A stretch of 64,000 nucleotides of DNA from Rathayibacter tritici (GTDB lineage Bacteria; Actinomycetota; Actinomycetes; Actinomycetales; Microbacteriaceae): NCBI RefSeq assembly GCF_002932875.1, contig NZ_PSWS01000058.1, positions 124,001 through 188,000 of the forward strand, given 5' to 3'. Under the pieces are notes generated by a model. That model did not search any database. It was not told the origin of the DNA and was given only the letters and a program-made list of their open reading frames with translations. This document shows, piece by piece, positions 5,991 to 37,122 of the stretch. Both the position numbers and the translations under genes were made by a program. How positions within the stretch are numbered: the stretch's first letter is position 1; every line of letters begins with the position of its first letter.

Positions 5991-7028
5991 TCAGCCCGAT
6001 CCGGAGGGAGCCGCCGGCCCCCGCGTGTACGGCGCTCCGGCCTGATCAACGTCCCAGCGGCCCGCGGGGGAGGGCCGGACCACTGCGGGCGGCGCAGGTG
6101 TCGAGCCCAGCGCGGAGTGCCAGCGGAAGATCGCGTCGATGCCGTCCTGATTCGCCCAGGACGGCGGGTTGTGGCCGAGGCTGTGCGTGCGGACGCTCGC
6201 CTCCTTCGCGGTCGATGTCGCCTTGTCGACGAGAGCACGACCGTGCAGGGCAGGCGGGACGCTCGTATCGGGGTGCGCCGTGTCCGAGACGACGACGCGG
6301 ATGTTGGCTCCGGCCCAGGCGGAGGCGGGCAACCGCTTCGGATTGTGCGCGTCGACCTGGGCGGTGCTGCCGCCGAAGGCGCCGCCGATCGAGAAGCGGC
6401 CCCGGACCGTGCGGTCGTAGATGTCGCGCAGGTCGTAGACACCGTTGATCAGGTACATGCCGTTGATGCCGGGGAAGACCTGGGAACCGTAGTTCTCGCA
6501 GGCCAGCGCTCCACCGGCCGACATCGCCCAGAGGTAGCTCGCGGCGATCGGGAACTGGTCTGAGAGGTAGGCGTAGCCGTCGCGCTGATGCTGCTGCGCA
6601 GTGTCGTTGGTCCACAGCGTGCCGCCGAGGCTCTGGCAGATCGCAAGGGCGCCCCGCTCGACGGCGAGCTCAGCCGGGTAGGCGAAGACGGTGGACAGCG
6701 AAGTGTGGTCGGCCTGAGCGGAGTGGAGGAACCAGATCACCGGGGTCGGGGTCGCCTGCCTGGGCTCTACCGTCTGCGGGATACAGATGCGCGCGAGGTC
6801 GCCGTTGATCGAGACCGTGACGACGTCGTAGAGCACACCTCGATTCTTCGTCCTCAGGGACGTCGTGCGGCTCGTCTCCCCGGGCAGGCCGGGGACGGGG
6901 GAAGCAGCGGCAGCCGGGAGCGATGCCGCGCCCAGCGCGACAGCACCCGAGAGGGCTCCGCCGACGACGGTGCGCCGACGGAGGCCGAGAGCTCGGGAAG
7001 AAATGCCTGCTGAATCGTCGGGGGACAT
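5991..7028 (-). CDS. Tat-exported alpha/beta-hydrolase-like protein (paralogue of the 946-3114 product)
   Basis: A 345-residue protein with a twin-arginine signal (LRRRTVVGGALSG, cleavage near SLPAAAA). It aligns along its length with residues 60-315 of the product at 946: both have LPGE[VT]SR, HT[AS]LS[ST][AV]FAY, the serine region (here AMSAGG, Ser170), LPAS[VA]W and VPFALHG/VPPALHG. The His loop is RTHSLGHNPPSW. Unlike the paralogue it has no binding or LamG domains and ends in a short Pro/Gly/Ser-rich tail. It is probably secreted; activity is unknown. The pair flanks a monooxygenase and a serine hydrolase in a tail-to-tail arrangement. Confidence 0.75.
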   Translation of the reverse strand: MSPDDSAGISSRALGLRRRTVVGGALSGAVALGAASLPAAAASPVPGLPGETSRTTSLRTKNRGVLYDVVTVSINGDLARICIPQTVEPRQATPTPVIWFLHSAQADHTSLSTVFAYPAELAVERGALAICQSLGGTLWTNDTAQQHQRDGYAYLSDQFPIAASYLWAMSAGGALACENYGSQVFPGINGMYLINGVYDLRDIYDRTVRGRFSIGGAFGGSTAQVDAHNPKRLPASAWAGANIRVVVSDTAHPDTSVPPALHGRALVDKATSTAKEASVRTHSLGHNPPSWANQDGIDAIFRWHSALGSTPAPPAVVRPSPAGRWDVDQAGAPYTRGPAAPSGSG

Positions 7029-7154
7029 GAAATCTCCTCCTGCGGAGGCCGCTCGCCGACGGGATCGGCAGTACGGCCCGGATCGGCGGGGTCTGACTCC
7101 TTCACGCTAGCGGGAGATGCGGGCCCGCTGCCCCCTCGAATCGCGACACCCGCG

Positions 7155-7196
7155 CGACGGCGGGATCGGACGACCACGGCTCCCGCCGTCGTCCGA
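7155..7196 (-). terminator. Stem-loop terminator of the PepSY gene
   Basis: CGACGGCGGGA (7155-7165) and TCCCGCCGTCG (7181-7191) form a perfect 11-bp stem. An overlapping alternative stem pairs TCGGACGAC (7166-7174) with GTCGTCCGA (7188-7196). The structure lies 12 bases past the stop of the leftward gene at 7208. The two mutually exclusive stems are unusual for a simple terminator. Confidence 0.55.
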
Positions 7197-7207
7197 CCCC
7201 GCCTGGG

Positions 7208-8686
7208 TCACCCTGCGCTGGCGCCTGCGCGCTTTCGACGGCGCCGGACGAGGCCGGTGATCACATCGATGACGACGAACGCGGCGAGACTAGCCCCCGC
7301 CAGCGGTAGGAACAGTCCGACCGCGAGGGCGACAGCGAGGACCGCAGCGACACCCCACCAGGGGGCACGCTGGAGGGCGCCACGCGCAGGAGCACTGCCC
7401 ACCGGTCGCCGTGGGTCGCCGGTGGGACGGCGCTTCCACCACATCAGGTAGCCGAGCACGACCATTGTGGCGATTCCCGCTGCGGTCACGAAGAGCAGCA
7501 GCTGATTGGGCAGGCCGAACATCGAGCCCATGTGCGTATCGATGCCCCAGCGGGAAAGCTTGGCGACCAGACCGAAGTCGGCGAAGTCGACGCGGTCGAC
7601 AACCTGCATCGTCTTCGCGTCGATGGCGACTGCGTCGACCTCGGTCGGGAAGCTGCGCTGGATCTCCTGCACCACCCACGCCGACCCTTCGCCCGCGGGC
7701 GGTCGGATCTCGACCATTCCGGTGTTCACGTTGACCTCGCGAGCGAGCGAGAGGACGTCGTCGTAGGAGCCCCGCGGGTCGTCGACCGCGGCGGCCGCGT
7801 GTCCGACGTCTCCGCCGTGGCCCGCGTGTCCGGAATGGCCTGCATGCTCGTCTCCGACGTCTCCCGTTCGCTCTCCGAGCGTGGTCTTCAGCGAGGGGGT
7901 CGTCCAGCCGAGCGCAGCGCGCAGGCTCTCGACGTTACCCCCGCCGTACAGGGACCAGGTGATCCCCGTCGCCGAGAGGAACAGCGCGCCGACAAGGAGC
8001 CAGATCCCGGTGGAGGCGTGCCAGGAGAACAGTCGCCGGTAGCCGGTTGTCCTCGGCGCGGGCCGGAACAGGTCCCTTCTCACCCGGGCCCGGCGGACGC
8101 GATTGATCCACAGGCCCAGGCCGGCGAGCGCCACAACACCCAGCCAGGAGGCGGCGAGCTCGCTGTAGGAGCGGCCGACGTCTCCCAGGTGGAGCGTGCG
8201 GTGCAGGTCGCTGACCCAGGTGCGCAGTGGCAGGGCGCCGCTGGTGCCGTAGGCGGTGAGATCCCCGCGGACATCGGCGGTCGCTGGGTCGATGAAGACC
8301 GCTCGAGTCTCGCCCGCTCCGAGTGACGGGTCCGCGAACATGACCCGGGTGGTGTCGCCCGGATCAGGGGCTGGGCGGACGGCGACAATGCGCTGCCCGC
8401 CCCCGGTGTACTCCTCGGCCGCGTCGATCTGGTCGGCCAGGGGCAGGGAGCGGTCAGCTTCGGGGACATGCAGCTCCTGGGCGTACACGAGCTGCTCGAG
8501 CTGCGGTGTGAGCGCGTAGAGCCCACCGCTGCCTGCGGCGACCAGGATGAACGGTCCGACGAACAGGGCGGCTAAGAAGTGCAGGCGCAGCAGCAGCTGC
8601 CCGAACCAGCCTGCACTGCTCCGGCGGGGCGAGCGCGGGGGAGGGGTGTCGGCGGATTCGCGGGGCTCACGGGCGGTGGTGGTCAT
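7208..8686 (-). CDS. PepSY-associated transmembrane protein (PepSY-TM family)
   Basis: A 492-residue integral membrane protein. It has an N-terminal helix (LLRLHFLAALFVGPFILVAAGSGGLYAL), a large extracytoplasmic PepSY region, a second helix near SWLGVVALAGLGLWI, FSWHASTGIWLLVGALFLSATG, and C-terminal helices around LLLFVTAAGIATMVVLGYLMWWKRR. A His-rich loop (EHAGHSGHAGHGGDVGH) sits between helices. Members of this family are found in iron, haem or copper handling loci. The start is an ATG preceded by GAAGGA. The His cluster and the His/Met-rich neighbour at 8929 suggest metal handling, probably copper (inference). Confidence 0.85.
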   Translation of the reverse strand: MTTTAREPRESADTPPPRSPRRSSAGWFGQLLLRLHFLAALFVGPFILVAAGSGGLYALTPQLEQLVYAQELHVPEADRSLPLADQIDAAEEYTGGGQRIVAVRPAPDPGDTTRVMFADPSLGAGETRAVFIDPATADVRGDLTAYGTSGALPLRTWVSDLHRTLHLGDVGRSYSELAASWLGVVALAGLGLWINRVRRARVRRDLFRPAPRTTGYRRLFSWHASTGIWLLVGALFLSATGITWSLYGGGNVESLRAALGWTTPSLKTTLGERTGDVGDEHAGHSGHAGHGGDVGHAAAAVDDPRGSYDDVLSLAREVNVNTGMVEIRPPAGEGSAWVVQEIQRSFPTEVDAVAIDAKTMQVVDRVDFADFGLVAKLSRWGIDTHMGSMFGLPNQLLLFVTAAGIATMVVLGYLMWWKRRPTGDPRRPVGSAPARGALQRAPWWGVAAVLAVALAVGLFLPLAGASLAAFVVIDVITGLVRRRRKRAGASAG

Positions 8687-8928
8687 CAGTGTGGTCCTTC
8701 GGTGCTGGCGTGCGGAGAAGTGAGGGTCGCCGACGGAGCCGCTCTCGGCGGTGCACGGCGGGATCGCGAGGGCTCCGGGATCACCGGGGAACCCGATGGC
8801 CGTCATCGCTGCAAAGGCGGACGGCGAAGCCCTGACGTCCGGCCGCGCTGGAGCGGGCGCGGAGGCATCACGACAGCGGCTCACCCGGACCCTCGGCAGA
8901 GTTCACGGCCGGGCCGGCGTCGGTCTCG

Positions 8929-9582
8929 TCAAGAAACTCGCTGGACGGGAGGGCCGCGGCGCGGGGCGGCCTGAGGGAAGACTCCTACCGCGAGCGGGAG
9001 GACGTCGCGGAGTTCGAACGAGGATCGCAGCGCAGGACGAGGCGCGGCAGCGGGCAACGGCGGCAGGCGCACCAGCCGGGTGACGAGGTGACCGGTCGTT
9101 GCCGCGATCCGGATCAGCATCGCCTCGCCGCGGTGCAGGAGGGCGATCGTCACGACCGCGGCGACCATGTGCGCGATCGACATCGATGACCCGGCCATCC
9201 CGGAGTGCGCCATCGCACCGCTGACCTCGATGACGGTGCCGTGATGTGCGTGCGTCGGCGCCGGGCCCGGGCCCTCGCTCGAACCGAGAACGAAGAGCGT
9301 GTGAAACAGCACCTGGCTCACCGCGACCGAGATCGTGACCCGGATCAACGACAAGCCCCGCCCCGCCAGCCCCACGCACACGAGTACCGACAGCACCAGC
9401 GGCACGGCGATGCCGAGCAGCCCCGGAATCGGCCCGCCCCCGACGACGTGCGAGAACAGAGCGATCAGCGTCGAAACGGTCGCTGCCACGACACCCCGGA
9501 GGGTGCGGAGCGCACGAGTCGACGACACGCGACCAGTGTTGCAGACGCGAGGAGCGCGGCGAGGCGGCGCCGGCTCCGTCAC
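8929..9582 (-). CDS. His/Met-rich integral membrane protein of unknown function
   Basis: A product of up to 217 residues with about four hydrophobic segments (GVVAATVSTLIALFSHVV, LGIAVPLVLSVLVCVGLAG, IRVTISVAVSQVLFHTLFVLG, IAHMVAAVVTIALLH). Between the third and fourth lies HAHHGTVIEVSGAMAHSGMAGSSMSIAHM, rich in His and Met, as in copper-binding loops. The GTG start at 9582 falls inside a tandem repeat; a second GTG 18 codons downstream (VSSTRALRTLRG) is also plausible. It is transcribed in the same direction as the PepSY-TM gene, about 240 bases upstream. No named family was recognised. Confidence 0.65.
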   Translation of the reverse strand: MTEPAPPRRAPRVCNTGRVSSTRALRTLRGVVAATVSTLIALFSHVVGGGPIPGLLGIAVPLVLSVLVCVGLAGRGLSLIRVTISVAVSQVLFHTLFVLGSSEGPGPAPTHAHHGTVIEVSGAMAHSGMAGSSMSIAHMVAAVVTIALLHRGEAMLIRIAATTGHLVTRLVRLPPLPAAAPRPALRSSFELRDVLPLAVGVFPQAAPRRGPPVQRVS

Positions 9583-9620
9583 TCCCTCCCGGCCCGAATC
9601 ACTCCCTCCCGGCCCGAATC
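9581..9620. repeat. Two exact tandem copies of a 20-bp unit at a gene junction
   Basis: The 20-base unit ACTCCCTCCCGGCCCGAATC occurs twice in a row at 9581-9600 and 9601-9620, followed by the partial copy ACTCC. The repeat supplies the stop region of the DapA-like gene and the first annotated codon of the membrane protein, so its copy number sets the spacing between the two genes. Confidence 0.95.
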
Positions 9621-10518
9621 ACTCCGCCGTCAAGCCGAGCGCCGCCAGCACCTCCGCGACCCGGTTCCGCGCCCGAAGGTCGAGCCCGCGGACCGGCCTC
9701 GGCAGGCAGTCCACCGCAACGAGCCCGAGCTGCTCCGCCATCGCCGCGACCACGCGGTAGCTGCCGCCGTACTCGGCGAAGAGATCCCAGAGCGGTTGCA
9801 GCCGCGCCGATTCCGCCGTCACCGCCGCCGAGTCGCCGGCGCGCACCGCCCGGACCATCCTCAGCGCCGTCTGCGGGAAGAGACCGCCCAGCACCGAATA
9901 CCAGGCGTCGCAACCGGCGAGCAGTCCGCGCGCCGCCGCGTCGTCTCTGGAGACCCCGATGCCCACCTCCTTCGGGAGCAGATGCCGGATCGCCTGCACG
10001 CGCAGGGTCGCGGCTTCCTGCTCCGCAGGCACTCCGGGGATCTTGATCGACGCGACGTGCGGGAGCGCGGCGACGGCGGCGTAGAGATCATCGGTGAAGG
10101 TGACGTGCGTCGTCCCAGGGTTGTCGTAGACGACCAGCGGAACCGAGAGCTGCGCGGTGACGTCCTCGTAGAGTCCGAACACCTCCTCGTCTGTCAGGGG
10201 CTGGTAGCTGAGCGGAGCCAGCAGCACCGCGCTCGCTCCGGCGTTCTGCGCGTCCTCGGCGAGCGCCAGCACCTGCGAGGTGCGCAGCGCTCCGATCCCG
10301 ACGACGACGGGCACCGGGCCGGCGCTGCGTACGGCGATCTGCGCGGCCCGGCGGCGCTCGCCGCGGTCGAGGTACGGCGCCGAGCCGGTCGAGCCCAGCG
10401 CGCCGATTGAGTCGACCCCCGCACGGGCCAGCCGCTCGACGAGAGCCGCGAACGACGGCTCGTCGACACTGTCGTCGGTCAGGGGAGTGAGGGGGAAGGC
10501 ACTGAGTCCGGTGAGCAC
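9619..10518 (-). CDS. DapA/NanA-family lyase or aldolase (dihydrodipicolinate synthase-like)
   Basis: A 299-residue class I TIM-barrel aldolase. The Schiff-base lysine is Lys159 (VASIKIPGVP) and the catalytic tyrosine Tyr131 (VVYDNPGTTHV). The substrate-binding Gly-Thr-Thr-Gly-Glu of DapA is replaced by Gly-Ser-Thr-Gly-Ser (residues 42-46), arguing against lysine biosynthesis and for a 2-keto acid aldolase or dehydratase. It is the last gene of the leftward sugar-transport unit, beginning at GTG at the end of the PfkB kinase gene. A kinase plus 2-keto-acid aldolase suggests a branch for oxidised sugars, but substrate is not deducible. Confidence 0.85.
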   Translation of the reverse strand: MLTGLSAFPLTPLTDDSVDEPSFAALVERLARAGVDSIGALGSTGSAPYLDRGERRRAAQIAVRSAGPVPVVVGIGALRTSQVLALAEDAQNAGASAVLLAPLSYQPLTDEEVFGLYEDVTAQLSVPLVVYDNPGTTHVTFTDDLYAAVAALPHVASIKIPGVPAEQEAATLRVQAIRHLLPKEVGIGVSRDDAAARGLLAGCDAWYSVLGGLFPQTALRMVRAVRAGDSAAVTAESARLQPLWDLFAEYGGSYRVVAAMAEQLGLVAVDCLPRPVRGLDLRARNRVAEVLAALGLTAE

Positions 10519-11392
10519 GTCGATCCATTCGCTGGCAGTGTGGGAGGAGTCCGCCGGGGGAGCGGATGGTCGCGGCAGCGACGTCCATCGCTCGCGTCAG
10601 CGCCGGGACGGGATCGAGGACGCCGGCGGCCAGAGCTGCGACGACGGTGGCGAAGACGGCGTCGCCCGCGCCCATCGTGTCGACGATCTCTCCGTCGGCG
10701 CGCGCGATCGGCACGGCGACGCGCTCGCCGCGCCGTACGAAGGCTGCTCCGTCGGGCCCTGTCGTCTCGAGCACCGCCTGCGCTCCTGCGTCGAGGACGC
10801 GAGCGGTTGCCGCAGCGAGCCCGGTCGCGAAGATCAGTTCGGCGTCGTCGGCGCCCAGCTTCACGAGCGCGGCGCCGGCCGAGAGGTCGAGGAGCCCCGC
10901 GGCGAAAGCGGCCCGGTCGCGCAGGAGGCCGGGTCGAGGGTTGGCGTCGATGGCCAATCGAGCGCCGTCGACGACCAGGGCCCGCAGCATCGCGACCTCG
11001 ACCGAGACGTCGAACGGGAATCCGCTGACGACGACGAGATCGGCTCGCGCGGCTGCCTGCCGAAGCTCCCCGGTCGGCACGAGAGTACGGGAGCGCGAGG
11101 CCTCGGAGAAGGAGTACTGCGGCTCCCCGGCCGTCCGGTCGGAGATCGCCCTCCCCGTTCCCAGCGGAGCGGTGGTGGCCAGCAGGGTCACCCCGTGGTC
11201 GGCCGCGTGCCGCCGGAGCATCCCGCCTGACTCGTCCTCGCCCACCATCCCGGCCAGGACGGCGGGGACTTCCAGCACGGCGAGTCCGACGGCGACATTG
11301 AGTGCGGACCCTCCTGCGACGTCGACCGACCCTGCAGGAGTGCGGAGTTCGTCGACGAGGATGTCGCCGAGCACGAGCACGGAGGCGGTCAT
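10088..11392 (-). CDS. PfkB/ribokinase-family sugar kinase with aberrant C-terminus
   Basis: Residues 1-280 are a clear PfkB kinase: the first signature around GGSALNVAVGLAVL and the second as DTMGAGDAVFAT with catalytic base Asp244. After PGG281 the frame continues 153 more residues of Arg-rich, family-unlike sequence through the first 430 bases of the DapA-like gene in another frame. Real kinases of this class end near residue 290-310, so the true end is probably around 10500-10540. A run of five C (10556-10560 on the plus strand as G) sits exactly at the point of divergence and could hold a frameshift. The start overlaps the upstream permease stop by ATGA. Fructokinase or a keto-acid kinase are both possible. 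Confidence 0.75.
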   Translation of the reverse strand: MTASVLVLGDILVDELRTPAGSVDVAGGSALNVAVGLAVLEVPAVLAGMVGEDESGGMLRRHAADHGVTLLATTAPLGTGRAISDRTAGEPQYSFSEASRSRTLVPTGELRQAAARADLVVVSGFPFDVSVEVAMLRALVVDGARLAIDANPRPGLLRDRAAFAAGLLDLSAGAALVKLGADDAELIFATGLAAATARVLDAGAQAVLETTGPDGAAFVRRGERVAVPIARADGEIVDTMGAGDAVFATVVAALAAGVLDPVPALTRAMDVAAATIRSPGGLLPHCQRMDRRAHRTQCLPPHSPDRRQCRRAVVRGSRRAAGPCGGRLNRRAGLDRLGAVPRPRRAPPGRADRRTQRRPGARRRRDRSAAHLAGAGARRGRAERRSERGAAGSAQLPAPDRRGGVRTLRGRHRAALGSAGRLRQPWDDARHLHR

Positions 11393-12303
11393 CCTTTGAC
11401 CGCGCCGGCGGTGAGGCCCGCGATGACCTGCTTCTGGAAAAGCGCGTAGATCACGAGCTGGGGGAGGAGTACCAGGGTCGCGGCGGCCATCATCGCTCCG
11501 TAGTCGACGGTGTACTGCCCCTGGAAGCGGGAGACTGCGAGCGAGACGGTCGCCATATCCGGATTGTTGAGGAGGATCGACACGAACGGGAACTCATTGA
11601 AAACGTAGACGATGTTGAAGATCAGGACGGTGGCGATGACCGGTCGCATGACGGGCAGCACGACGGATCGGCAGATGCGGAACAGTCCCGCGCCGTCGAT
11701 GATCGCCGCCTCTTCGAGCTCGGTCGGGAACTCGCGCAGGAAACCGGTGAGCAGGAGAGTGTTGAAAGGAATCGAGACGGCGATGTAGGGGAGGATCACG
11801 GCGGCGAAGGTGCCGAAGATGCCCAGCGCGAGGTCGAGTCGGTAGATCGGGAACAGCAGCACATAGACCGGAACGGCGAGACCCGCGAGGAGGTAGAAGC
11901 GCAGCGCGGACTGTGCTCGCGGCCGCCGGAAGATCATCCGGGTGAGCGCGTAGCTGGCCATAAACGAGACGACTGTTCCGACGAGGACCGAGATCACCGC
12001 GATGAGGAGCGTGTTCGCGTACATCTGCAGCAGCGGGAGCGAGCCGATGACGTTTGCGTAGTTGTCCAGGGTGAGGGAGAGCAGCGAGAAGGGGTCGGAG
12101 AGGATCTTGTCGCTGGGCTGCAGCGAGAGCAGGGCGATCCAGAGGATCGGCAGGATGATCAGGAACGTGACCAGGTAGGCGGCGATTCCCGTGATGATCG
12201 AGGCTCGGCGGGCTCGGGCGCGCCAGGGACCACGGTCTGCTCCTCTCTGCTCCGTCTCCGCGGTGGCCAGGACGGTGTCGTGCTGCGGGGTGAGGGTGCT
12301 CAT
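11389..12303 (-). CDS. Carbohydrate ABC transporter permease (MalG type)
   Basis: A 304-residue inner membrane protein with six predicted helices. It has the MalG-type EAA loop (TELEEAAIIDGAGLFRICRSVVLPVMRPVIA) that contacts the ATPase. Its start overlaps the upstream permease stop (ATGA at 12300-12303) and its stop overlaps the kinase start in the same way, showing one operon. It should form the membrane channel with the MalF-type permease. No ATPase gene is present in the unit; an MsmX/UgpC-type ATPase encoded elsewhere is probably shared. Confidence 0.92.
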   Translation of the reverse strand: MSTLTPQHDTVLATAETEQRGADRGPWRARARRASIITGIAAYLVTFLIILPILWIALLSLQPSDKILSDPFSLLSLTLDNYANVIGSLPLLQMYANTLLIAVISVLVGTVVSFMASYALTRMIFRRPRAQSALRFYLLAGLAVPVYVLLFPIYRLDLALGIFGTFAAVILPYIAVSIPFNTLLLTGFLREFPTELEEAAIIDGAGLFRICRSVVLPVMRPVIATVLIFNIVYVFNEFPFVSILLNNPDMATVSLAVSRFQGQYTVDYGAMMAAATLVLLPQLVIYALFQKQVIAGLTAGAVKG

Positions 12304-13169
12304 GCGATGCTCCGTCGTCGTGCGAGTGCGAGGTAGACGCCGGAGACCAGGGCGCCGAGGACGAACACGATCACGGCAATGGCCATGCCGGATCCGTAGT
12401 TCTGGTTCGTGAAGGTGACGAAGTACATGTAGCTCACCAGGGTCTCGGAGCGATGGACCGGGCCGCCGCCGGTGAGCATGTAGACGAGCTCGAAAATCTT
12501 GAAGACATTCGTGATGAGGAGGAGGGTGACGATCCCGAAGGTCTCGTTCATCATCGGGACGGTGATGTAGCGCAGTCGCTGCCAGCCGGAGGCGCCGTCG
12601 ATGTCGCCAGCTTCCATGATCGATTCCGGGAGCTGCTGAAGCCCGGCGTAGAAAATCGTCATGGCAAAGCCGATGCTGCTCCAGATAAAGACGAGCGAGA
12701 CCGCGTAGGGCGTGAGGGTGTCTCCGCCGATCCACTGGATCTCGGGGACGCCGAGTGGAGCGAGGAGGCGGTTGAGGAGTCCGATCTTCGGGTCGAGGAT
12801 GAACACCCAGATGAGTCCCACGAGGATCGGCGCGATGATCGCGGGTCCGAAGACGAGGGCTCGAAGCAGTCCTCCGCCGCGTTTGTGCCGCTGGAGCAGG
12901 AGTGCCAGGGCGAACGAGGAAGGGATCAGGACGGCGAGGCTGACGATCAGGATAATGACGGTGTTGGACAGGGCCTGCCAGAAGAAAGGGTCCGAGCCCA
13001 GCGCGACGTAGTTGGCGAGCCCGTTGAAGGTCGCGGCGCCGAAGCCGGCGAAGCTGGTGAAGCTGTAGCCGAGGGAGTAGAGGACGGGGTAGACGACGAA
13101 AGCGGTGAAGAAGACGAGCGCCGGGAGAGGCATCAGCGTGATCTTCCAGCGAGAGCTGACCCAGGTCAT
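12300..13169 (-). CDS. Carbohydrate ABC transporter permease (MalF type)
   Basis: A 289-residue membrane protein with a MalF-like pattern: N-terminal helix (MPLPALVFFTAFVVYPVLYSLGYSF), the loop ESIMEAGDIDGASGWQRLRYITVPMMNETF as EAA motif, and C-terminal helix with YGSGMAIAVIVFVLGALVSGVYLAL. It follows the solute-binding protein gene by about 70 bases and overlaps the MalG-type gene. It belongs to the CUT1 family of oligosaccharide importers (known for this architecture). Confidence 0.92.
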   Translation of the reverse strand: MTWVSSRWKITLMPLPALVFFTAFVVYPVLYSLGYSFTSFAGFGAATFNGLANYVALGSDPFFWQALSNTVIILIVSLAVLIPSSFALALLLQRHKRGGGLLRALVFGPAIIAPILVGLIWVFILDPKIGLLNRLLAPLGVPEIQWIGGDTLTPYAVSLVFIWSSIGFAMTIFYAGLQQLPESIMEAGDIDGASGWQRLRYITVPMMNETFGIVTLLLITNVFKIFELVYMLTGGGPVHRSETLVSYMYFVTFTNQNYGSGMAIAVIVFVLGALVSGVYLALARRRSIA

Positions 13170-13239
13170 AGTGATCTCGATTCGAGAGGGGTGATCGGGG
13201 GAGGGGCGGAGTCGCGGTTGCGACTCCGCCCGGGGCAGG

Positions 13240-14562
13240 TCACTGGCCTGCGTCGATGGCCTTCTGAACGAGATCGACGGCCTGCTGCGGGCTGAGCTGG
13301 TCCTGGATCACGCCGTAGATGCTGTCGTACATGGCGCTCGAGACGGCGGTCGAGACGAGCAGATCGGGCTGGGTCTGCGGGCTGGACACTCCGTCGGCGG
13401 TCGTGGCGTCGAGGGCGCTCTTCAGGGCGCTCTGCTTCGTTGCGTCGAGCTGGGGTGCGTAGTCGGTAACGGGTGGCTGGCCGTTGTCGACCAGCAGCTG
13501 CTGCGCCTGGTCGCTGTAGTAGAAGGCGAGGAACTTCTCGACGGCGGCGAGCTTGTTCTCGTCGTCTCCGACCTTGTGGTCGACGACGAGCGGGGCGGAG
13601 GCGACGTTCATGATGATGTTCTGTTCGCCGACGCCGTCGCTGAACTGCGGTCCGGCCCAGAAGCCGGTGTCGGCGGCGACGGCCGAGTCCTGGATGGAGC
13701 TGGACGCCCAGACGCCGGCGTCGAGCATGGCAGCCTTGCCCTGCAGGAACTGGTCGACGGCCTGCTGATAGGTCTGCGTCGACACGTTCGAGGCGAAGGC
13801 ACCCGCGTCGCGGAGCTCGGCGATGTGCTCGTACATGCGCAGGAAGTCGGGGTTCGAGTAGCTGTCGGAGCCGTCGAGGATGCCGTCGATCTTGTCCTGG
13901 TAGCCGAAGCGGTCGAGCCACACGAGGAAGGACCACACGCTGAACGAGGACTGGTTCGCGCCGTTGGAGATCGTGACGATCCCCTTCTTGCTGAGGGTGT
14001 CGGCGACCTCGACGAGATCGTCGAACGTCGTGGGAACCGCAAGTCCGTTGTCCGAGAGAATCTTCTCGTTGTACCAGAGGCCAGTGAGCAGCCCCTGGTA
14101 CGGGACGCCGTACATCACGTCGTCCTTCGTGAAGTTGGTGACCGTGCTCTCCGGGAAGCGGTCGGTGACGTTCAGCTCGTCGAGCACGGGGGCGAGGTCG
14201 AGGAGTCGCCCCGCGTCAAGCATGTCCTCAGCGGTGGCCTTGTAGACCCAGAAGACGTCGGGAAGGGTGTCGCTCTGCGCAGCGATGGTCAGGCTCTGCA
14301 GGTGCTCGGCGACCGCCTGACCGGTCACATCGACGGTGATGTCGGGGTTGGCGGCCTCGAAAGCCTGGACGATCGCCCAGGTTGCCGGGTCAGCGGTCTC
14401 GACATCGGGGTTCTGCATCGAGAGGGTGATCGTCGTGGTGCCGTCAGCGGAGTCCCCGCCGGTGGCGGTGGAGCAGCCCGCGAGGACGACGGTGCTGACG
14501 AGGGCGAGGGCGACGGCCGCGGTGAGCCTCGGCTTCTGCGGGTGAATCCGATGTCCGAGCAT
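13240..14562 (-). CDS. Extracellular sugar-binding lipoprotein of an ABC importer
   Basis: A 440-residue family 1 solute-binding protein. The signal peptide ends in a lipobox (VVLAGC, Cys30). The mature part has the family 1 layout (TITLSMQNPDVETADPATWAIVQAFEAANPDI, GVPYQGLLTGLWYNEKIL, FLQGKAAMLDAGVWASSSI). The start is set at the ATG 6 bases after AAAGGAG; an ATG two codons upstream lies directly on that ribosome binding site. First gene of the unit after the operator cluster at 14607-14654. By context it should bind a fructan-derived oligosaccharide (inference). Confidence 0.93.
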   Translation of the reverse strand: MLGHRIHPQKPRLTAAVALALVSTVVLAGCSTATGGDSADGTTTITLSMQNPDVETADPATWAIVQAFEAANPDITVDVTGQAVAEHLQSLTIAAQSDTLPDVFWVYKATAEDMLDAGRLLDLAPVLDELNVTDRFPESTVTNFTKDDVMYGVPYQGLLTGLWYNEKILSDNGLAVPTTFDDLVEVADTLSKKGIVTISNGANQSSFSVWSFLVWLDRFGYQDKIDGILDGSDSYSNPDFLRMYEHIAELRDAGAFASNVSTQTYQQAVDQFLQGKAAMLDAGVWASSSIQDSAVAADTGFWAGPQFSDGVGEQNIIMNVASAPLVVDHKVGDDENKLAAVEKFLAFYYSDQAQQLLVDNGQPPVTDYAPQLDATKQSALKSALDATTADGVSSPQTQPDLLVSTAVSSAMYDSIYGVIQDQLSPQQAVDLVQKAIDAGQ

Positions 14563-14606
14563 GGGCATCTCCTTTGATGAGGGGGGCGTCAGGAAGACTC
14601 GCACAT

Positions 14607-14618
14607 CGAAACGTTTGC
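14607..14618. promoter_or_regulatory. LacI-family operator, copy 1 (solute-binding protein promoter)
   Basis: The palindrome CGAAACGTTTGC has the central C-G step typical of LacI/GalR operators. With flanks, the 18 bases CATCGAAACGTTTGCGCG (14604-14621) are the exact reverse complement of 15777-15794 in front of the GH172 gene. It lies just downstream of the predicted transcription start, a position that would block transcription. Confidence 0.85.
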
Positions 14619-14619
14619 G

Positions 14620-14631
14620 CGAACCGTTTGC
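14620..14631. promoter_or_regulatory. LacI-family operator, copy 2 (tandem, one mismatch)
   Basis: CGAACCGTTTGC differs from copy 1 at a single base and is centred 13 bp upstream of it. The two would put repressor dimers close together but rotated by slightly more than one helical turn. It covers the predicted transcription start at about 14630. Confidence 0.65.
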
Positions 14632-14636
14632 CCGAG

Positions 14637-14664
14637 AGTAGAAGCGGCTTCTACCCGCTGTCAA
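14637..14664 (-). promoter_or_regulatory. Predicted promoter of the sugar ABC transporter operon
   Basis: On the minus strand TTGACA (14664-14659) is a perfect -35 box, followed after 16 bases by TCTACT (14642-14637), a 4/6 match to the -10 consensus. The predicted start near 14630 lies inside operator copy 2. The spacer contains a perfect palindrome (14638-14654). Confidence 0.6.
14638..14654. promoter_or_regulatory. Perfect palindrome in the promoter spacer
   Basis: GTAGAAGC-G-GCTTCTAC is an exact 8-bp inverted repeat around one base. It overlaps the -10 box and fills the spacer, and is unrelated in sequence to the CGAAACGTTTGC operators. It may be a site for a second regulator, or a hairpin downstream of the lacI stop at 14672. 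Confidence 0.55.
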
Positions 14665-14671
14665 GTAATGC

Positions 14672-15676
14672 TTACAGGGAGAACTCGAACGCTTCTGTCG
14701 ACGTCCGAAGCTCGAGGGTCTGCTGCAGCCGCACGGTGCGGGGGCTGCTGGCCGGCCGCTCGATTCTCTCGAGCAGCAGCCTCACTGCCGCCGTTCCCAT
14801 GTCGAATCCGGGCTGCCTGATCGTCGTGAGCGCGGGCTCGAAGAGATCGGCGTGGTCGAAGCCGTCGAAGGTCGCGAAGGCGATGTCACGGGGAATCGCG
14901 AGGCCTTCTGCGCGGAGGCGCTCGAGGGCTTGAACGGCGAGCGGCGTGCTCGAGGCGATGATCACCGAGGGACGAAGCGGTCGACGGATCGCCGCCATCA
15001 CCGCGGCATCGACGGCTTCACGCTCGCTGTCGTCGATCACTGCCTGGTCGTCTCGGTCGGACGCGGGGACCGCGTCCCGGAATCCTGCCGCCCTCTCCCG
15101 CAGGGTGGGCACGCGCTGGTCGCCTGCGATGAGGATGAACCGCCGGTGGCCCGCTGCGCGCAGGTGCTCGACGAGACGGCGCATGCTCTCGCGATTGTCC
15201 GCCCCGACCTGATCGACGGGCGCAGCGTCGAAGACGCGGTCGAGCAGGACGACCGGGGGAGATCCGCCTTGCAGCTCGCCCAGCCCGGAGTCGCCGGAGT
15301 CTGCGGAGAGCGCGAGGATCAGGCCGTCGACGCGTCGGCCCAGCAGGGTCTGGACGGCCCGCGCCTCACGCACCTGATCCTCGGAGGAGTTGGCGAGGAG
15401 AAGGGTCATGCCCTCGGCCGCGGCGGCATCCTCCACGCCATGCACCATGGCTGCGAAGGCGGGCTCGCCGGCGTCCGAGACGACGAGTCCGATGCTGTCG
15501 GTGCGGGAGCGCCGGAGGGACCGGGCCAGGGTGTCCTGGCGGTAGGACGTCTTCTTGATGGCGTCCATCACGCGGCGACGCGTGGCGGGGTCGACCGGCC
15601 GAGTGTTGTTGAGGACGTGCGAAACGGTCGACGTCGAAACCCCCGCCATGCGTGCGACCTGAACCATGGTGGCCAT
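14672..15676 (-). CDS. LacI-family transcriptional repressor of the sugar locus
   Basis: A 334-residue LacI/GalR regulator. The N-terminal HTH is MVQVARMAGVSTSTVSHVLNN, followed by the hinge helix DTLARSLRRSRTDSIGLVV and a periplasmic-binding-protein-like effector domain (VVLLDRVFDAAPVDQVGADN, PSVIIASSTPLAVQALERL, IAFATFDGF). ATG start preceded by GGAG. It lies between the two units it presumably controls: the importer operon downstream on the same strand and GH172-GH32 divergently. The identical palindromes at both promoters are the expected targets (inference). Confidence 0.93.
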   Translation of the reverse strand: MATMVQVARMAGVSTSTVSHVLNNTRPVDPATRRRVMDAIKKTSYRQDTLARSLRRSRTDSIGLVVSDAGEPAFAAMVHGVEDAAAAEGMTLLLANSSEDQVREARAVQTLLGRRVDGLILALSADSGDSGLGELQGGSPPVVLLDRVFDAAPVDQVGADNRESMRRLVEHLRAAGHRRFILIAGDQRVPTLRERAAGFRDAVPASDRDDQAVIDDSEREAVDAAVMAAIRRPLRPSVIIASSTPLAVQALERLRAEGLAIPRDIAFATFDGFDHADLFEPALTTIRQPGFDMGTAAVRLLLERIERPASSPRTVRLQQTLELRTSTEAFEFSL

Positions 15677-15737
15677 TTTTCTCCGATCAATCCTTTGCGC
15701 GTGGCCCCACCGTAGTCAGGTTCCCGCTCCAGAGCCA

Positions 15738-15767
15738 TTGCGGCCCACGGGGCGTCCTGTCTAGGAT
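15738..15767 (+). promoter_or_regulatory. Tentative promoter of the GH172-GH32 unit
   Basis: TTGCGG (15738-15743) and TAGGAT (15762-15767) are separated by 18 bases. Both boxes are weak, but the position places the transcription start just before the operator at 15780-15791, matching the layout at the importer promoter. Confidence 0.35.
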
Positions 15768-15779
15768 CACACTCACCGC

Positions 15780-15791
15780 GCAAACGTTTCG
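15780..15791. promoter_or_regulatory. LacI-family operator, copy 3 (GH172 promoter)
   Basis: GCAAACGTTTCG is the exact reverse complement of operator copy 1. Identity extends to the 18 bases 15777-15794. It lies in the 167-base region between the divergent lacI and GH172 genes, about 50 bases before the GH172 start codon. Confidence 0.85.
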
Positions 15792-15843
15792 ATGCGGCGG
15801 TACGACAAGCGAATCGAAGCTCTGCCGCTTCGCAGGAAGGACG

Positions 15844-17202
15844 ATGATGACCGATCCGATCACTCCCGGAGGCCTCCTGGGCGATCTCACGAGGACTCGA
15901 CCGGGGCGCTCCGCCAGGGCGTCGAGCTTCGATCAGACCGGCCGCAACCGGGACAACTGGATCGTGATGCCGGGGGAGGAGCGCACCCTCGCCGATCTCG
16001 AGGGTCCCGGTGCGATCACCCACATCTGGATGACGCAGTCCTGCCGCGTCCAGCCCGGTCCGGGGCAGATCGACCCGGCGGTCGTCGGCGTGCCGATGCT
16101 CGAGATCCACAATGCGCTCGGCGTGAGCTGGGAGGTCGTGGACCCCGACTACTACCGGAAGATCCTGCTCAAGATCTACTGGGATGACCAGGAGACCCCG
16201 AGCGTCGTCGCGCCCCTGGGCGACTTCTTCGGCCTGATGAACTCCCTCTCCGGCAGCTATGATTCCCTCCCGCTCTCGGTCTCCGCGAAGGAGCCGGAGC
16301 TGCACTCCTTCGGCGGGAGCGCCGCCTTCAACAGCTACTTCCGGATGCCGTTCGGCTCTCGCGCGCGCGTGGTCGTCGAGAACCAGAACGACATCCCCTA
16401 CCTCCAGTACTTCTACATCGACTACGAACTCTCGCCCGAGCCCCTGCCGGAGGACACCGTCTACTTCCACGCACACTGGCGGCGAGCGCTCCCCAACGTT
16501 GGCTGGGGTCCTGATCTGCAAGCGAACAGCATCGAGACGACGGTCGCGAACCTGACCGGCGAGGACAACTACGTCGCCCTCGAGACCGAAGGTCGCGGCC
16601 ACTACGTCGGCTGCACCCTCGCGGTCCGTCACTTCCAGGGCTCCTGGTGGGGTGAGGGCGACGACATGATCTTCATCGATGACGACACCTGGCCGCCGAG
16701 CCTGCACGGCACCGGGATGGAGGACTACTTCGGTCATGCCTGGGGAATGCAGCGCAACGCGTATCAGTTCAACGGCACGATCGTGCACGAAGAGGACGTC
16801 CCCGGGTTCCACCACAGTTACCGGTTCCACCTGGTCGACCCGATCCGCTTCGAGAAGCGCATCAAGGTCACCTTCGAGCACGGGCACGGCAACCATCTCT
16901 CGGACGACTGGTCCTCGACCGCGTACTGGTACCAGACACTGCCCTCGCCGATCCTCGAGGTTCCGCCTGTCGAGGAGCGGCTCCCACTGCGACCCGTCGA
17001 CCGGGTGATCACGAGCGAGCTCCCGGCCCTCAACGACGAGCAGCGGGCAGCGCGGGAGGCGGCCTCGGAACGGATGAAGCACTTCACCTCCGCCCGCGAC
17101 GCCCTCCGTGAGGAGCGCCGTGCGCAGATCGACGACTGGGAACGCGGGAACCGCGAGCAGGCCGCGCAGATCCGCCGGCGCTACGACGGAGGACGCGCGT
17201 GA
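15844..17202 (+). CDS. Glycoside hydrolase family 172 (DUF2961) protein
   Basis: A 452-residue protein without signal peptide, so cytoplasmic. It matches GH172/DUF2961: GPGAITHIWMT, APLGDFFG, MPFGSRARVVVENQ and the hallmark LHGTGMEDYFGHAWG. Two Glu residues about 22 apart (271 in WWGEGDD, 293 in GMEDYF) fit the catalytic pair described for this family. Known members act on alpha-D-fructofuranosides, difructose dianhydride I/inulobiose, or D-arabinofuranosides. Two adjacent ATGs (15844, 15847) follow AGGAAGGA; the second has the better spacing. The stop overlaps the GH32 start. The GH32 neighbour argues for a fructoside substrate (inference). Confidence 0.9.
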   Translation: MMTDPITPGGLLGDLTRTRPGRSARASSFDQTGRNRDNWIVMPGEERTLADLEGPGAITHIWMTQSCRVQPGPGQIDPAVVGVPMLEIHNALGVSWEVVDPDYYRKILLKIYWDDQETPSVVAPLGDFFGLMNSLSGSYDSLPLSVSAKEPELHSFGGSAAFNSYFRMPFGSRARVVVENQNDIPYLQYFYIDYELSPEPLPEDTVYFHAHWRRALPNVGWGPDLQANSIETTVANLTGEDNYVALETEGRGHYVGCTLAVRHFQGSWWGEGDDMIFIDDDTWPPSLHGTGMEDYFGHAWGMQRNAYQFNGTIVHEEDVPGFHHSYRFHLVDPIRFEKRIKVTFEHGHGNHLSDDWSSTAYWYQTLPSPILEVPPVEERLPLRPVDRVITSELPALNDEQRAAREAASERMKHFTSARDALREERRAQIDDWERGNREQAAQIRRRYDGGRA

Positions 17203-18437
17203 CCCGCCCGCGGATCCACTTCACTGCCGAGACCGGGTGGATCAATGACCCGCACGGGATCACCTTCCACGACGGCGAGTACCACCTCTTCCACCAGTAC
17301 GTCCCGGACAGCACGGTGTGGGCCCCGAACTGCCACTGGGGACACGCGGTCGGACCGGACTTGCTGCACTGGGACCGCCGACCCGTCGCCCTCGCGCCCG
17401 GCGATGGGGACGACGGAATCTGGACCGGCAGTCTCGTCGATCAACCCGACGGAGCGGTCATCCTTTACACCTCGACCGTCCAGCCCGACCTCGGCCGGGG
17501 CCGCATCCGCATCGCCCGTGCGACGGACGGATCCTGGGATCACTGGGAGAAGGGCGCTGTCCTGCTCGAAACCCCCGACGACCTCGACCTGATCGCCTTC
17601 CGCGACCCGTTCATCATCCGAGAGGGCAAGAGCTGGCGCATGGTCGTCGGCGCCGGTACCGCGGACGGGGATGCCCTCGCCGTCACCTACACCTCGACAG
17701 ACCTGCAGGACTGGACCTTCGACGGCGTCGCCGCACGACGCAACACAGCGGAACGGGAACCCGTCTGGGTCGGTGCACTCTGGGAGTGCCCGCAGATCAT
17801 CGAGGTCGACGGGCGCCACGTCCTGGTCAGCTCGGTCTGGGATGACGACGTGCTCTACTACGCGGGCTACGGCGTCGGCAGTTACGCGAACGGCCGCTTC
17901 GACGCGGATACCTGGGGGAGGCTGAGCTTCGGCGAGTCCTACTACGCCCCGTCCTTCTTCCGCGATGCCGACGGCCGGCCGTGCTTGATGTTCTGGATGC
18001 GTGGCGTCGAGGACGGGGACGTCGGCTGGAGCAGCGCACTCAGCGTCCCGCACGTCCTGGAGATCCGCGACGGCAGCCTCGTCACCACCGCCCACCCGTC
18101 GCTCGAGGCAGCTCGAGCCGGTCGGGCGGATCTGAGTCGGATCGCAGGGCAGGTCGTCGACCTGGAATGGACGCCGGGCGGGATCGGCGAGCGGATCGAC
18201 CTCCTCAACGCCGGTGAACGAGTCGCCGCTCTGATTCGGACCGAAGACTCCATCGTGCTCGAACGAACGGGCGAGGAGACCTGGAGCGCACCGCATGCCG
18301 GTGGCACGGTCAGGATCATCCTCGACGGCCCCGTCCTCGAGGCGATCACGTCTGCTGGAGTACTCGGCGGCGCCGTGTCACCGGTGACAGCAGCGACCGT
18401 CAACGAGGAGACGGTGTCTGCTTACTTCTTGGAGTAA
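17199..18437 (+). CDS. Glycoside hydrolase family 32 (intracellular beta-fructofuranosidase-like)
   Basis: A 412-residue protein with all three GH32 motifs: nucleophile Asp17 in WINDPHG, transition-state stabiliser Asp136 in FRDP, and acid/base Glu196 in WECP. No signal peptide, so it acts in the cytoplasm on imported sucrose, inulo- or levan-oligosaccharides. The start is a GTG overlapping the GH172 stop (GTGA) and preceded by GGAGGA. It is somewhat short at the C-terminal beta-sandwich relative to typical GH32 enzymes. With GH172 it could degrade mixed alpha/beta fructofuranosides to fructose. Confidence 0.93.
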   Translation: MTRPRIHFTAETGWINDPHGITFHDGEYHLFHQYVPDSTVWAPNCHWGHAVGPDLLHWDRRPVALAPGDGDDGIWTGSLVDQPDGAVILYTSTVQPDLGRGRIRIARATDGSWDHWEKGAVLLETPDDLDLIAFRDPFIIREGKSWRMVVGAGTADGDALAVTYTSTDLQDWTFDGVAARRNTAEREPVWVGALWECPQIIEVDGRHVLVSSVWDDDVLYYAGYGVGSYANGRFDADTWGRLSFGESYYAPSFFRDADGRPCLMFWMRGVEDGDVGWSSALSVPHVLEIRDGSLVTTAHPSLEAARAGRADLSRIAGQVVDLEWTPGGIGERIDLLNAGERVAALIRTEDSIVLERTGEETWSAPHAGGTVRIILDGPVLEAITSAGVLGGAVSPVTAATVNEETVSAYFLE

Positions 18438-18443
18438 CCGAGC

Positions 18444-18483
18444 TCGGGCCGGGAGCACTGCGACAGCAGGACTCCCGGCCCGA
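18444..18483 (+). terminator. Stem-loop terminator after GH32
   Basis: TCGGGCCGGGAG (18444-18455) and CTCCCGGCCCGA (18472-18483) form a perfect 12-bp stem with a 16-base loop, starting 7 bases after the GH32 stop. No T-run follows. It closes the GH172-GH32 unit. Confidence 0.7.
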
Positions 18484-18647
18484 TCGTGCGGCACATTCTT
18501 GCGCACCAGCGCTGACCCTCCACGGTGAACTGGTCAGCACGAACTGACATAATGTGCATTATCGGAGTATGAGGAGCGACCGGATCAGAGCACTGGTCGA
18601 CGGCACGTGTCCGAGACGCCACGGGCGCCCATCACCCGCGGATCTGA

Positions 18648-19406
18648 TCAGCTAAAGTCCGAGATGTCGCCGACCAAGCGCGTGTTGTCCGCCGGGATCG
18701 GCTCGACCGCCGCCAGCGCGACCTCGGCCGCGAACTCCTGCACGTTGTAGAGCTTGCCCGCCGACTCGCGCCGCGAGCTGATCGCACCCGGGTTCGAGCG
18801 CTCCAGCAGCGTCGCTGTGATGGTTCCCTCGATCATGTCGCCGGACACGACGACAAAGCCGATTCCGCGCTCCGCGAGCTCGCCGATCCGCTCGCGCAGG
18901 GCGTCCTCGCCGGCCCGCTTCGACAGGGCGACAGGCTCGTACTCCGGCATCGTCGGAGTCGTGTGGATGAAGTGCGCCTGGTGGCTCGTCACGAACACGA
19001 CCCGTGAGCCCTCGCCGAGCAGCGGAAGAGCCGCGTCGAGCACGGCGAGCTGCGAGTCGCGATTGAGGACCATCGCGTAGTCCTCTCCTCTGTTGCTCTC
19101 CATGCCGCCGGAGGCGTTGAGCACCAGGATGTCGAGTCCGCCGTACTCCTGCTCGATGCGCGAGAAGAGCTGGGCGCGCGAGTCGGCGTCGGTGAGGTCG
19201 GCGCCGACCGCGATGGCGCTGCCGCCGGCCTCGACGATCTGCGCGACGAGCTTGTCGGCCCGGGGCGCCTTCGAGCGGTAGTTGACGACGACGCGGGCTC
19301 CTGCCTCGGCGAAGTAGCGGACCGTGTCGGCGCCGATGCCACGGGACGATCCGGTGACGAGGGCGCGCGTGCCGTCGAGGGAACCGGGTGCGAGGGGATT
19401 GGACAC
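18648..19406 (-). CDS. Short-chain dehydrogenase/reductase (SDR) family protein
   Basis: A 252-residue Rossmann protein with the cofactor motif TGSSRGIG and NASGG in place of NNAG. The Arg in NYRSKAP suggests NADP(H). The active-site region is unusual: Tyr in EYEPVALSK lies seven residues before Lys rather than four, and Val occupies the usual Tyr position. Either a small insertion shifts the tyrosine or the enzyme is catalytically altered. The gene stands alone between the fructan locus and the NfeD gene. Substrate unknown. Confidence 0.85.
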   Translation of the reverse strand: MSNPLAPGSLDGTRALVTGSSRGIGADTVRYFAEAGARVVVNYRSKAPRADKLVAQIVEAGGSAIAVGADLTDADSRAQLFSRIEQEYGGLDILVLNASGGMESNRGEDYAMVLNRDSQLAVLDAALPLLGEGSRVVFVTSHQAHFIHTTPTMPEYEPVALSKRAGEDALRERIGELAERGIGFVVVSGDMIEGTITATLLERSNPGAISSRRESAGKLYNVQEFAAEVALAAVEPIPADNTRLVGDISDFS

Positions 19407-37037: not shown

Positions 37038-37122
37038 GTCCGGGTGGCGGAAATGGCAGACGCGCTAGCTTGAGGTGCTAGTGCCCGTATAGGGCGTGGG
37101 GGTTCAAGTCCCCCCTCGGACA
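37038..37122 (+). tRNA. tRNA-Leu (anticodon GAG)
   Basis: The 85-base sequence folds as a class II tRNA. Acceptor GTCCGGG (37038-37044) pairs with CTCGGAC (37115-37121) with one G-T pair, discriminator A at 37122. The D-arm holds TGGCGGAAATGGCAGACGC; the anticodon stem CTAGC/GCTAG has loop TTGAGGT (anticodon GAG). A long variable arm (GTGCCCGTATAGGGC) and T-arm GGGGGTTCAAGTCCCCC complete it. CCA is not encoded. Confidence 0.96.

Follow-up and report, generated by a model that had tools for sequence, protein, structure and literature searches.

We analyzed a stretch of 64,000 nucleotides of the Rathayibacter tritici genome (contig NZ_PSWS01000058.1, positions 124,001 to 188,000), here called the window, in which genes for a GH172 protein and a GH32 protein are divergent from genes for a LacI-family regulator, a CUT1-type sugar importer and a PfkB-type kinase. 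Based on homology and on the gene neighborhoods of relatives, we give a probability of about 80% to the reading that this locus serves the catabolism of difructose dianhydride I (DFA I) and/or inulobiose. Genes are placed by their coordinates on the full 64-kb window (Table 1); genomes and loci used for comparison carry G and L numbers.

The GH172 protein and its predicted substrate residues

Four distinct sequences of solved structure matched the window GH172. The top match was alphaFFase1 (7v1v; 535 bits, E=1.2e-159), a Bifidobacterium dentium enzyme of solved structure that synthesizes and hydrolyzes DFA I (PMC8605356). The weaker matches were 4kq7 (200 bits) and two D-arabinan-active GH172s of the same DUF2961 family, 8ah3 (179 bits) and the exo-alpha-D-arabinofuranosidase 8ic8 (102 bits), in which the +1 glutamate stretch lies outside the alignments shown. 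The window GH172 is 53% identical to alphaFFase1, with residues 10-450 of 452 aligned, and falls within both limits of the homolog set described in PMC8605356 (>47.45% identity and >79% coverage). Catalysis by alphaFFase1 is assigned to E270 as acid/base and E291 as nucleophile (PMC8605356), and these are conserved together with N31, D33, E85, K147, Y187, W267, T288, D292 and W298, a set that covers catalytic, -1 and +1 subsite residues. The window equivalents include E271 (acid/base), E293 (nucleophile), D294, Y189, W268 and W300, and the Ca ligand N272 of alphaFFase1 is replaced by D.

The +1 subsite residues E85 and K147 of alphaFFase1 correspond to E87 and K149 in the window GH172. In alphaFFase1, the E85A, E85Q and K147A mutants had <5% of inulobiose activity and kept 94-100% of activity on p-nitrophenyl-alpha-D-arabinofuranoside (PMC8605356). 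At the level of sequence, the +1 residues are the best marker at hand for a difructose substrate, and the predicted equivalents of both are present here. By homology, the window GH172 is probably an alphaFFase1-type DFA I synthase/hydrolase.

To place this residue pair among relatives, 87 GH172 rows were aligned (L001-L083, L130, L147, the window and alphaFFase1). In the column of the +1 lysine, 80 rows have K, five have R, one has H and one has a gap (L147), and the +1 glutamate was absent in L065 and L147. A GH32 partner, scored across L001-L083 as a match of >40 bits within the locus stretch, was found near 0 of the 6 GH172s with R or H at this column versus 75 of the other 77 (Fisher P=7e-8, a value that is overstated, as rows are related, with 3 of the 6 from Chimaeribacter, and flank lengths are unequal; the direction is clear). 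A +1 lysine together with a GH32 partner is a candidate for a one-residue rule separating difructose-type GH172s from others.

GH172s with R at the +1 lysine and no GH32 occur in L062, L063 and L083 (a Chimaeribacter arupi plasmid, 7983-15472). In L083, the GH172 gene adjoins genes for a GPH symporter, a LacI regulator, an FGGY kinase and an L-fucose isomerase, an arrangement that looks like a route from D-arabinofuranosides to D-arabinose in an enterobacterium.

The GH32 protein and the importer

The N-terminal domain of GH32 enzymes is marked by NDP, RDP and EC motifs; the window protein has WINDPHG, FRDP and ECP at residues 14, 134 and 196, and its closest solved chain is the beta-fructosidase 1uyp. 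The C-terminal beta-sandwich domain PF08244 gave no match at E 0.001, and residues 297-412 are without a Pfam domain. The GH172 and GH32 frames overlap by GTGA. Among the importer genes, the substrate-binding protein has a lipobox-like LAGC (by eye), and the top NCBIfam matches of both permeases are sugar permeases, all under cut-off. A binding protein and two permeases are present, and a Pfam search found no importer ATPase among the eight genes of the region. CUT1 importers may share an MsiK-type ATPase, and the ATPase of this importer is presumably shared with other systems.

Much of this had been proposed in an earlier note on the same DNA. All eight genes it reported are present near the positions given there, and a Pfam search agrees with each of its family assignments. 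The translational coupling of GH172 and GH32 that it described is borne out by the GTGA overlap, the enzyme motifs that it mentioned were located as the GH32 motifs and the GH172 catalytic residues, and its view that both enzymes lack signal peptides agrees with the N termini, which were inspected by eye only and neither of which looks like one. It had also placed a CUT1 importer, a PfkB kinase, a LacI regulator and a DapA-like lyase beside the pair; the identities hold, the end of PfkB proved to be altered, and the membership of DapA does not stand.

Conservation of the locus in relatives

A scan for GH172 relatives yielded 122, of which the best 80 were kept. In 68 of these 80, a same-strand GH32 match lay no further than 600 bases from the GH172 stop, and 74 had CUT1-type permeases within 6 kb. 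The earlier note had suggested looking for the same gene order in related genomes, and the divergent order of the window, with an adjacent and divergent LacI homolog, was found in 18 of the 80 (the script gave 21; L031-L033 were removed, their LacI being at the far end). GH32 homology begins -3 to +6 nucleotides from the GH172 stop in L001-L016, L021, L022 and L064, and 33-80 nucleotides from it in 14 Arthrobacter loci (L017-L020, L023-L030, L034 and L035), these distances being taken from homology starts and not from mapped start codons. In L048 (Naasia aerilata, ~10001-12700), GH172 and GH32 are each split in two frames by a frameshift or a sequencing error.

An Arthrobacter plasmid typed as mobilizable has the order LacI-LacI-importer-GH172-GH32-kinase. 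When its kinase was searched in 89 loci, a match 3' of GH172 on the same strand was found in 23 (eight of them <70 bits, one the query itself, and G006 counted twice). The window PfkB is distant from kinases of this plasmid type (60 bits).

Several relatives also contain a GH91 gene. The GH91 query, identified by a 639-bit match to the DFA-IIIase 5zks, matched in 20 of the 80 genome loci and in one plasmid locus. The copies in L005 and L009 best match 8hsn ('Fructotransferase'; 480 and 515 bits), with 295-338 bits against the inulin fructotransferases 2inu and 9j4i. We take 8hsn to be a DFA I-forming enzyme, for which no confirmation was found; the literature searched contained nothing naming PDB 8hsn, or an inulin lyase together with Streptomyces peucetius. 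The GH91 frames of L001, L004, L005, L007 and L010 open <20 residues ahead of the homology, too few for a signal peptide, and these enzymes may act in the cytoplasm, which would be odd for inulin degraders and unlike the three-stage route proposed for Streptomyces davawensis, where this step is extracellular. The GH91 copy of L028 has a Tat-like leader. Besides GH172, LacI and a GH32-type gene, a Rhizobium phaseoli plasmid (L082, 7060-17545) has a CUT1-type importer complete with an ATPase and a DFA-IIIase-type GH91 under the annotation NosD; this locus may process both DFA I and difructose dianhydride III (DFA III).

Putative operators and a proposed mechanism

The 12-base word CAAACGTTTCGA is present in all 21 divergent LacI/GH172 intergenic regions compared (the window, 19 genome loci and L130), and the bases that follow it vary. 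Allowing one mismatch, it occurs in the window only at 15781 and 14606, which is 63 bases 5' of GH172 and 41 bases 5' of the binding-protein homology. When the 16-base form was searched with up to 3 mismatches, 4 matches were found in the window versus 0.30 expected; the two further ones, at 9468 and 48717, carry 3 mismatches each. Both operator sites come directly after -35/-10 pairs read by eye (TTGCGG-18-TAGGAT and TTGACA-18-TACTCT). In L001, L010 and L064, further copies, exact or with one mismatch, lie ~250-460 bases 5' of the GH91 homology. A second palindrome-like word, TTTGCGCAAA or one near it, lies closer to LacI in several relatives (L007-L012, L048 and L130) and is only partly resembled in the LacI-GH172 intergenic region of the window.

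We propose that the LacI repressor would shut the two divergent promoters through a conserved AAACGTTT-centered operator at each. With the sugar present, the CUT1-type importer, with its predicted specificity, would take in the intact disaccharide. Cytoplasmic GH172 would then open DFA I to inulobiose and the coupled GH32 would split inulobiose into two fructoses, pulling the reaction; such a pull is proposed because the alphaFFase1 equilibrium favors DFA I over inulobiose by ~9:1 (PMC8605356). The PfkB-type kinase may phosphorylate the fructoses, and a fructokinase role is likely. The difructose-anhydride reading of the earlier note, with intact import and intracellular splitting, is well supported by comparison, and the operator motif makes the regulation testable.

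A variant of this scheme, which we consider rather improbable, is that GH172 acts in both directions and makes the inducer, by analogy with the lac operon, whose inducer allolactose is a product of beta-galactosidase. Imported inulobiose would be converted to DFA I, the direction favored ~9:1 in alphaFFase1; DFA I would free LacI from both operators, and GH32 would set its level through the consumption of inulobiose. If this were true, the signal-less GH91 enzymes of relatives could add to this DFA I pool in the cytoplasm by acting on fructo-oligosaccharides that have been imported.

A rearranged edge: the kinase, DapA and the origin of the block

G233, the closest relative found, comes from the same family as G006, the genome that contains the Microbacterium mangrovi locus. 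Its stretch L117 aligns to the window up to 18646 and from 10553, the main blocks being ~88-92% identical at the nucleotide level, and between these borders has 1.5 kb of other DNA versus 8.1 kb in the window. Over the 16 kb compared, DapA (89% identical as protein) is the only gene of the set present in G233.

One border of the block lies close to the altered end of the kinase gene. The PfkB frame lacks its own stop and extends over 434 codons to 10088, ~150 beyond the kinase homology, with an arginine-rich tail that lies mostly out of frame over DapA; at its other end it overlaps the G-type permease frame by 4 nucleotides, ATGA. In the best matches the kinase homology stops between residues 281 and 284 (up to 293 in some weaker ones), at ~10540, near the G233 junction at 10553. 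Judged from these alignments, the original stop codon of PfkB was lost where the block meets resident DNA. G+C content is 73% in PfkB, 63% in the permeases, 66% in the binding protein, 66.7% in the whole block and 69-70% in the flanks. The top PfkB homolog among 299 family genomes is 71% identical and belongs to G312, a genome assigned to the same genus as G233; the next is 54% identical. The surroundings of this closest homolog found (L147, G312:C2:305000-323000) form a large fructan-type locus with one two-domain GH32, two more GH32N-matching genes, a different DUF2961/GH172 gene, CUT1-type importer genes, LacI and, by eye, an apparent peptide-type importer. Among five neighborhoods of moderate PfkB homologs (L148-L152), no GH172 or GH32 match was found, and L149 has a LacI-type match.

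The DapA-like gene has a different distribution. Its homologs (E<=1e-40) occur in 52 of the 299 family genomes and those of GH172 (E<=1e-100) in 5. In the first 12 GH172-bearing genomes searched, DapA had 2 close homologs (59-62% identity), the others being weak. Three genomes have both DapA and GH172, on different contigs in G006 and G012, and 2.7 Mb apart on one contig in G040. The surroundings of DapA were compared in 13 family genomes besides G233, in 9 of which a simple gene caller shows DapA (it was missed in L121, L123, L128 and L129), and no common partner was recognized by eye in these or in G006 and G012. Neither PfkB nor DapA had a close homolog in the 83 other loci compared (top scores of 73.5 and 71.5 bits versus 593 and 626 for the proteins themselves). 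The DapA-like lyase, which the earlier note had counted as part of the locus, was therefore rejected as a pathway member because it is present in G233 without the other genes of the set in the stretch compared and is not a neighbor of GH172 in the three genomes. On this comparative evidence, DapA is an older resident neighbor.

The SDR gene bordering the block was found in 15 of 15 genus genomes, and GH172 (E<=1e-50) in 0 of the 15, an empty result to be taken with caution, though the same query matches 5 of the 299 family genomes. Beyond the SDR gene, the 10 of these 15 genomes compared besides G233 differ from the window, and that DNA is only partly common among them; in G128, DapA lies ~8 kb further on from the SDR gene. 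No tRNA gene lies near the block (the sole one in the window is at 37038), and no repeats were found at its ends, the longest word common to both junction zones being 10 bases. A GH172 tree of 85 rows places the window in a supported six-member group (100/97) whose other members are Aeromicrobium, two Isoptericola and two Nocardioides. Two Microbacteriaceae genomes, Rhodoglobus and Schumannella, join in the next supported group, and the GH172s of Microbacterium, Leifsonia, Agreia and Agromyces are further off.

Three observations tentatively favor a gain of the block in this lineage over its loss in G233: none of the 15 genus genomes showed it, the end of the kinase is cut, and the tree agrees in part. 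The altered DNA upstream of DapA in G233 and the two Microbacteriaceae genomes in the next tree group count against a gain. In G233, the DNA 5' of DapA (L117, ~7100-7430) resembles by eye the end of an ABC-F type ATPase, and the site was therefore probably rearranged in G233 too. Transfer between actinobacterial families would be the simplest reading. A caution follows for similar loci, in that rearrangement can place a neighbor such as DapA and a stop-less kinase so that they mimic pathway members.

Points against the assignment and alternative explanations

Several observations weigh against the assignment to DFA I and inulobiose. In vitro, alphaFFase1 cleaves alpha-D-arabinofuranosides too (PMC8605356), and L038 and L046 keep the +1 lysine but show no GH32. 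The GH91 query has no match in the 64 kb of the window. An automatic scan of 10400-18700 gave no sigma-70-type promoter or terminator, the promoters having been read by eye. The kinase step is unsure because the C terminus of PfkB is altered and because its score on the NCBIfam fructokinase model, 52 bits, is far under the cut-off of 450.

The activity of alphaFFase1 on alpha-D-arabinofuranosides and the existence of D-arabinofuranosidases within the GH172 family (PMC10115798) would fit a locus that degrades alpha-D-arabinofuranosides, for instance pieces of arabinan from mycobacteria or corynebacteria, in which GH172 would be an exo-alpha-D-arabinofuranosidase. However, the DFA I enzyme is by far the nearest solved relative, the +1 difructose residues are conserved, the partner GH32 comes from a family of fructan enzymes, and the eight genes include neither an arabinose isomerase nor an FGGY-type kinase. 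In addition, where R or H replaces the +1 lysine, the GH172 has no GH32 nearby, and the plasmid example adjoins an L-fucose isomerase and an FGGY kinase. D-arabinan as main substrate was rejected on the structure matches, the +1 residues and the GH32 partner pattern, and we consider this explanation very unlikely. Uptake of general inulin- or levan-type fructo-oligosaccharides, with GH32 as the main enzyme and GH172 serving rare alpha linkages or DFA I salvage, is unlikely. It would agree with the breadth of the GH32 family and with the PfkB homolog of a genus mate, whose surroundings form a larger locus of fructan type that includes three GH32N-matching genes, whereas the position of GH172 at the head of its operon, with an operator-like site upstream, and the same-strand GH32 after GH172 in 68 of 80 relatives argue against it.

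PfkB and the DapA-like lyase could also be read as the kinase-aldolase branch of a sugar pathway, as they are adjacent on one strand with overlapping frames and both belong to superfamilies of sugar metabolism. Set against this are the presence of DapA in G233 without PfkB or the rest, the 0 of 83 other loci with close homologs of either, the separation of DapA from GH172 in the three genomes having both, and the loss of the PfkB stop codon at the junction, and we judge such a branch highly improbable. The catabolism of DFA I and/or inulobiose is the reading that we prefer.

Table 1. Genes, putative operators and block borders of the locus, with positions on the window.
Feature	Position	Strand	Remarks
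GH172 (DUF2961)	15844-17202	+	452 residues; PF11175 E=9.4e-83
GH32 beta-fructofuranosidase-type	17199-18437	+	412 residues; PF00251 E=1.8e-63
LacI-family regulator	14672-15676	-	PF00356 and PF13377; divergent from GH172
ABC sugar substrate-binding protein, lipoprotein-like	13240-14562	-	PF01547 E=8.9e-28
CUT1-type permease, F-type	12300-13169	-	PF00528
CUT1-type permease, G-type	11389-12303	-	PF00528
PfkB-superfamily sugar kinase	10088-11392	-	PF00294 on residues 24-281 of 434
DapA-like (DapA/DHDPS) aldolase/lyase	9619-10518	-	Pfam match; judged outside the system
Predicted LacI operator GCAAACGTTTCGATGC, 5' of GH172	15780-15795	+	Exact 16-mer match
Predicted LacI operator GCAAACGTTTCGATGT, 5' of binding-protein gene	14603-14618	-	1 mismatch to 16-mer; 12-base core exact
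Block missing from closest relative G233	10553-18646		Limits good to some tens of bases; blastn against L117

Elsewhere in the window, two predicted proteins (946-3114 and 5991-7028) are alike in their leader-like and following sequence by eye and are perhaps paralogous secreted hydrolases.

Comparison with known systems

The earlier note knew of no described actinobacterial locus with such a layout, a statement that does not hold given two descriptions in PMC8605356 and the 18 relatives with the same order. The first description is an operon of B. dentium (BBDE_2039-2043) with LacI, GH32, GH172 and ABC transporter genes, whose GH32 and GH172 are argued to be both intracellular, with mention of unpublished growth on DFA I (PMC8605356). 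The window matches this kind in having LacI, GH32, GH172 and ABC importer genes together, with no secretion signal seen on the two enzymes and the same GH172 active site. As far as B. dentium is known here by description, the window differs in that its regulator and importer are divergent from GH172-GH32 and in its extra PfkB kinase; alphaFFase1 also belongs to another tree clade than the window GH172. The second is Streptomyces davawensis (BN159_0187-0194), for which a three-stage route from inulin to DFA I has been proposed, with a GH172-GH32 pair and a GH91 DFA I-forming inulin fructotransferase of nearby locus tag (PMC8605356). This actinobacterium, likewise known here by description, shares the GH172-GH32 pair; its GH91 gene has no counterpart found within the 64-kb window.

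Closer likenesses are found in L001-L005 (Aeromicrobium, Isoptericola and Nocardioides), which have the divergent order and GH172s 88-90% identical to that of the window. Both of their promoters carry the operator core, which in L002 and L004 differs by one base at the binding-protein site. These loci differ from the window in their GH91 gene, which in L002-L005 follows the G-type permease, where the window has PfkB, and in L001 follows a kinase that itself follows GH32. No other study of such a locus was recognized in the literature searched, which covered few subscription journals; one study reportedly deals with DFA III in Blautia. The locus thus belongs to an already described kind, to which the present analysis adds an operator motif, a candidate residue rule and a rearranged edge. 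The DFA I pathway, argued so far from one Bifidobacterium and one Streptomyces, is now tied to a locus common to many actinobacteria.

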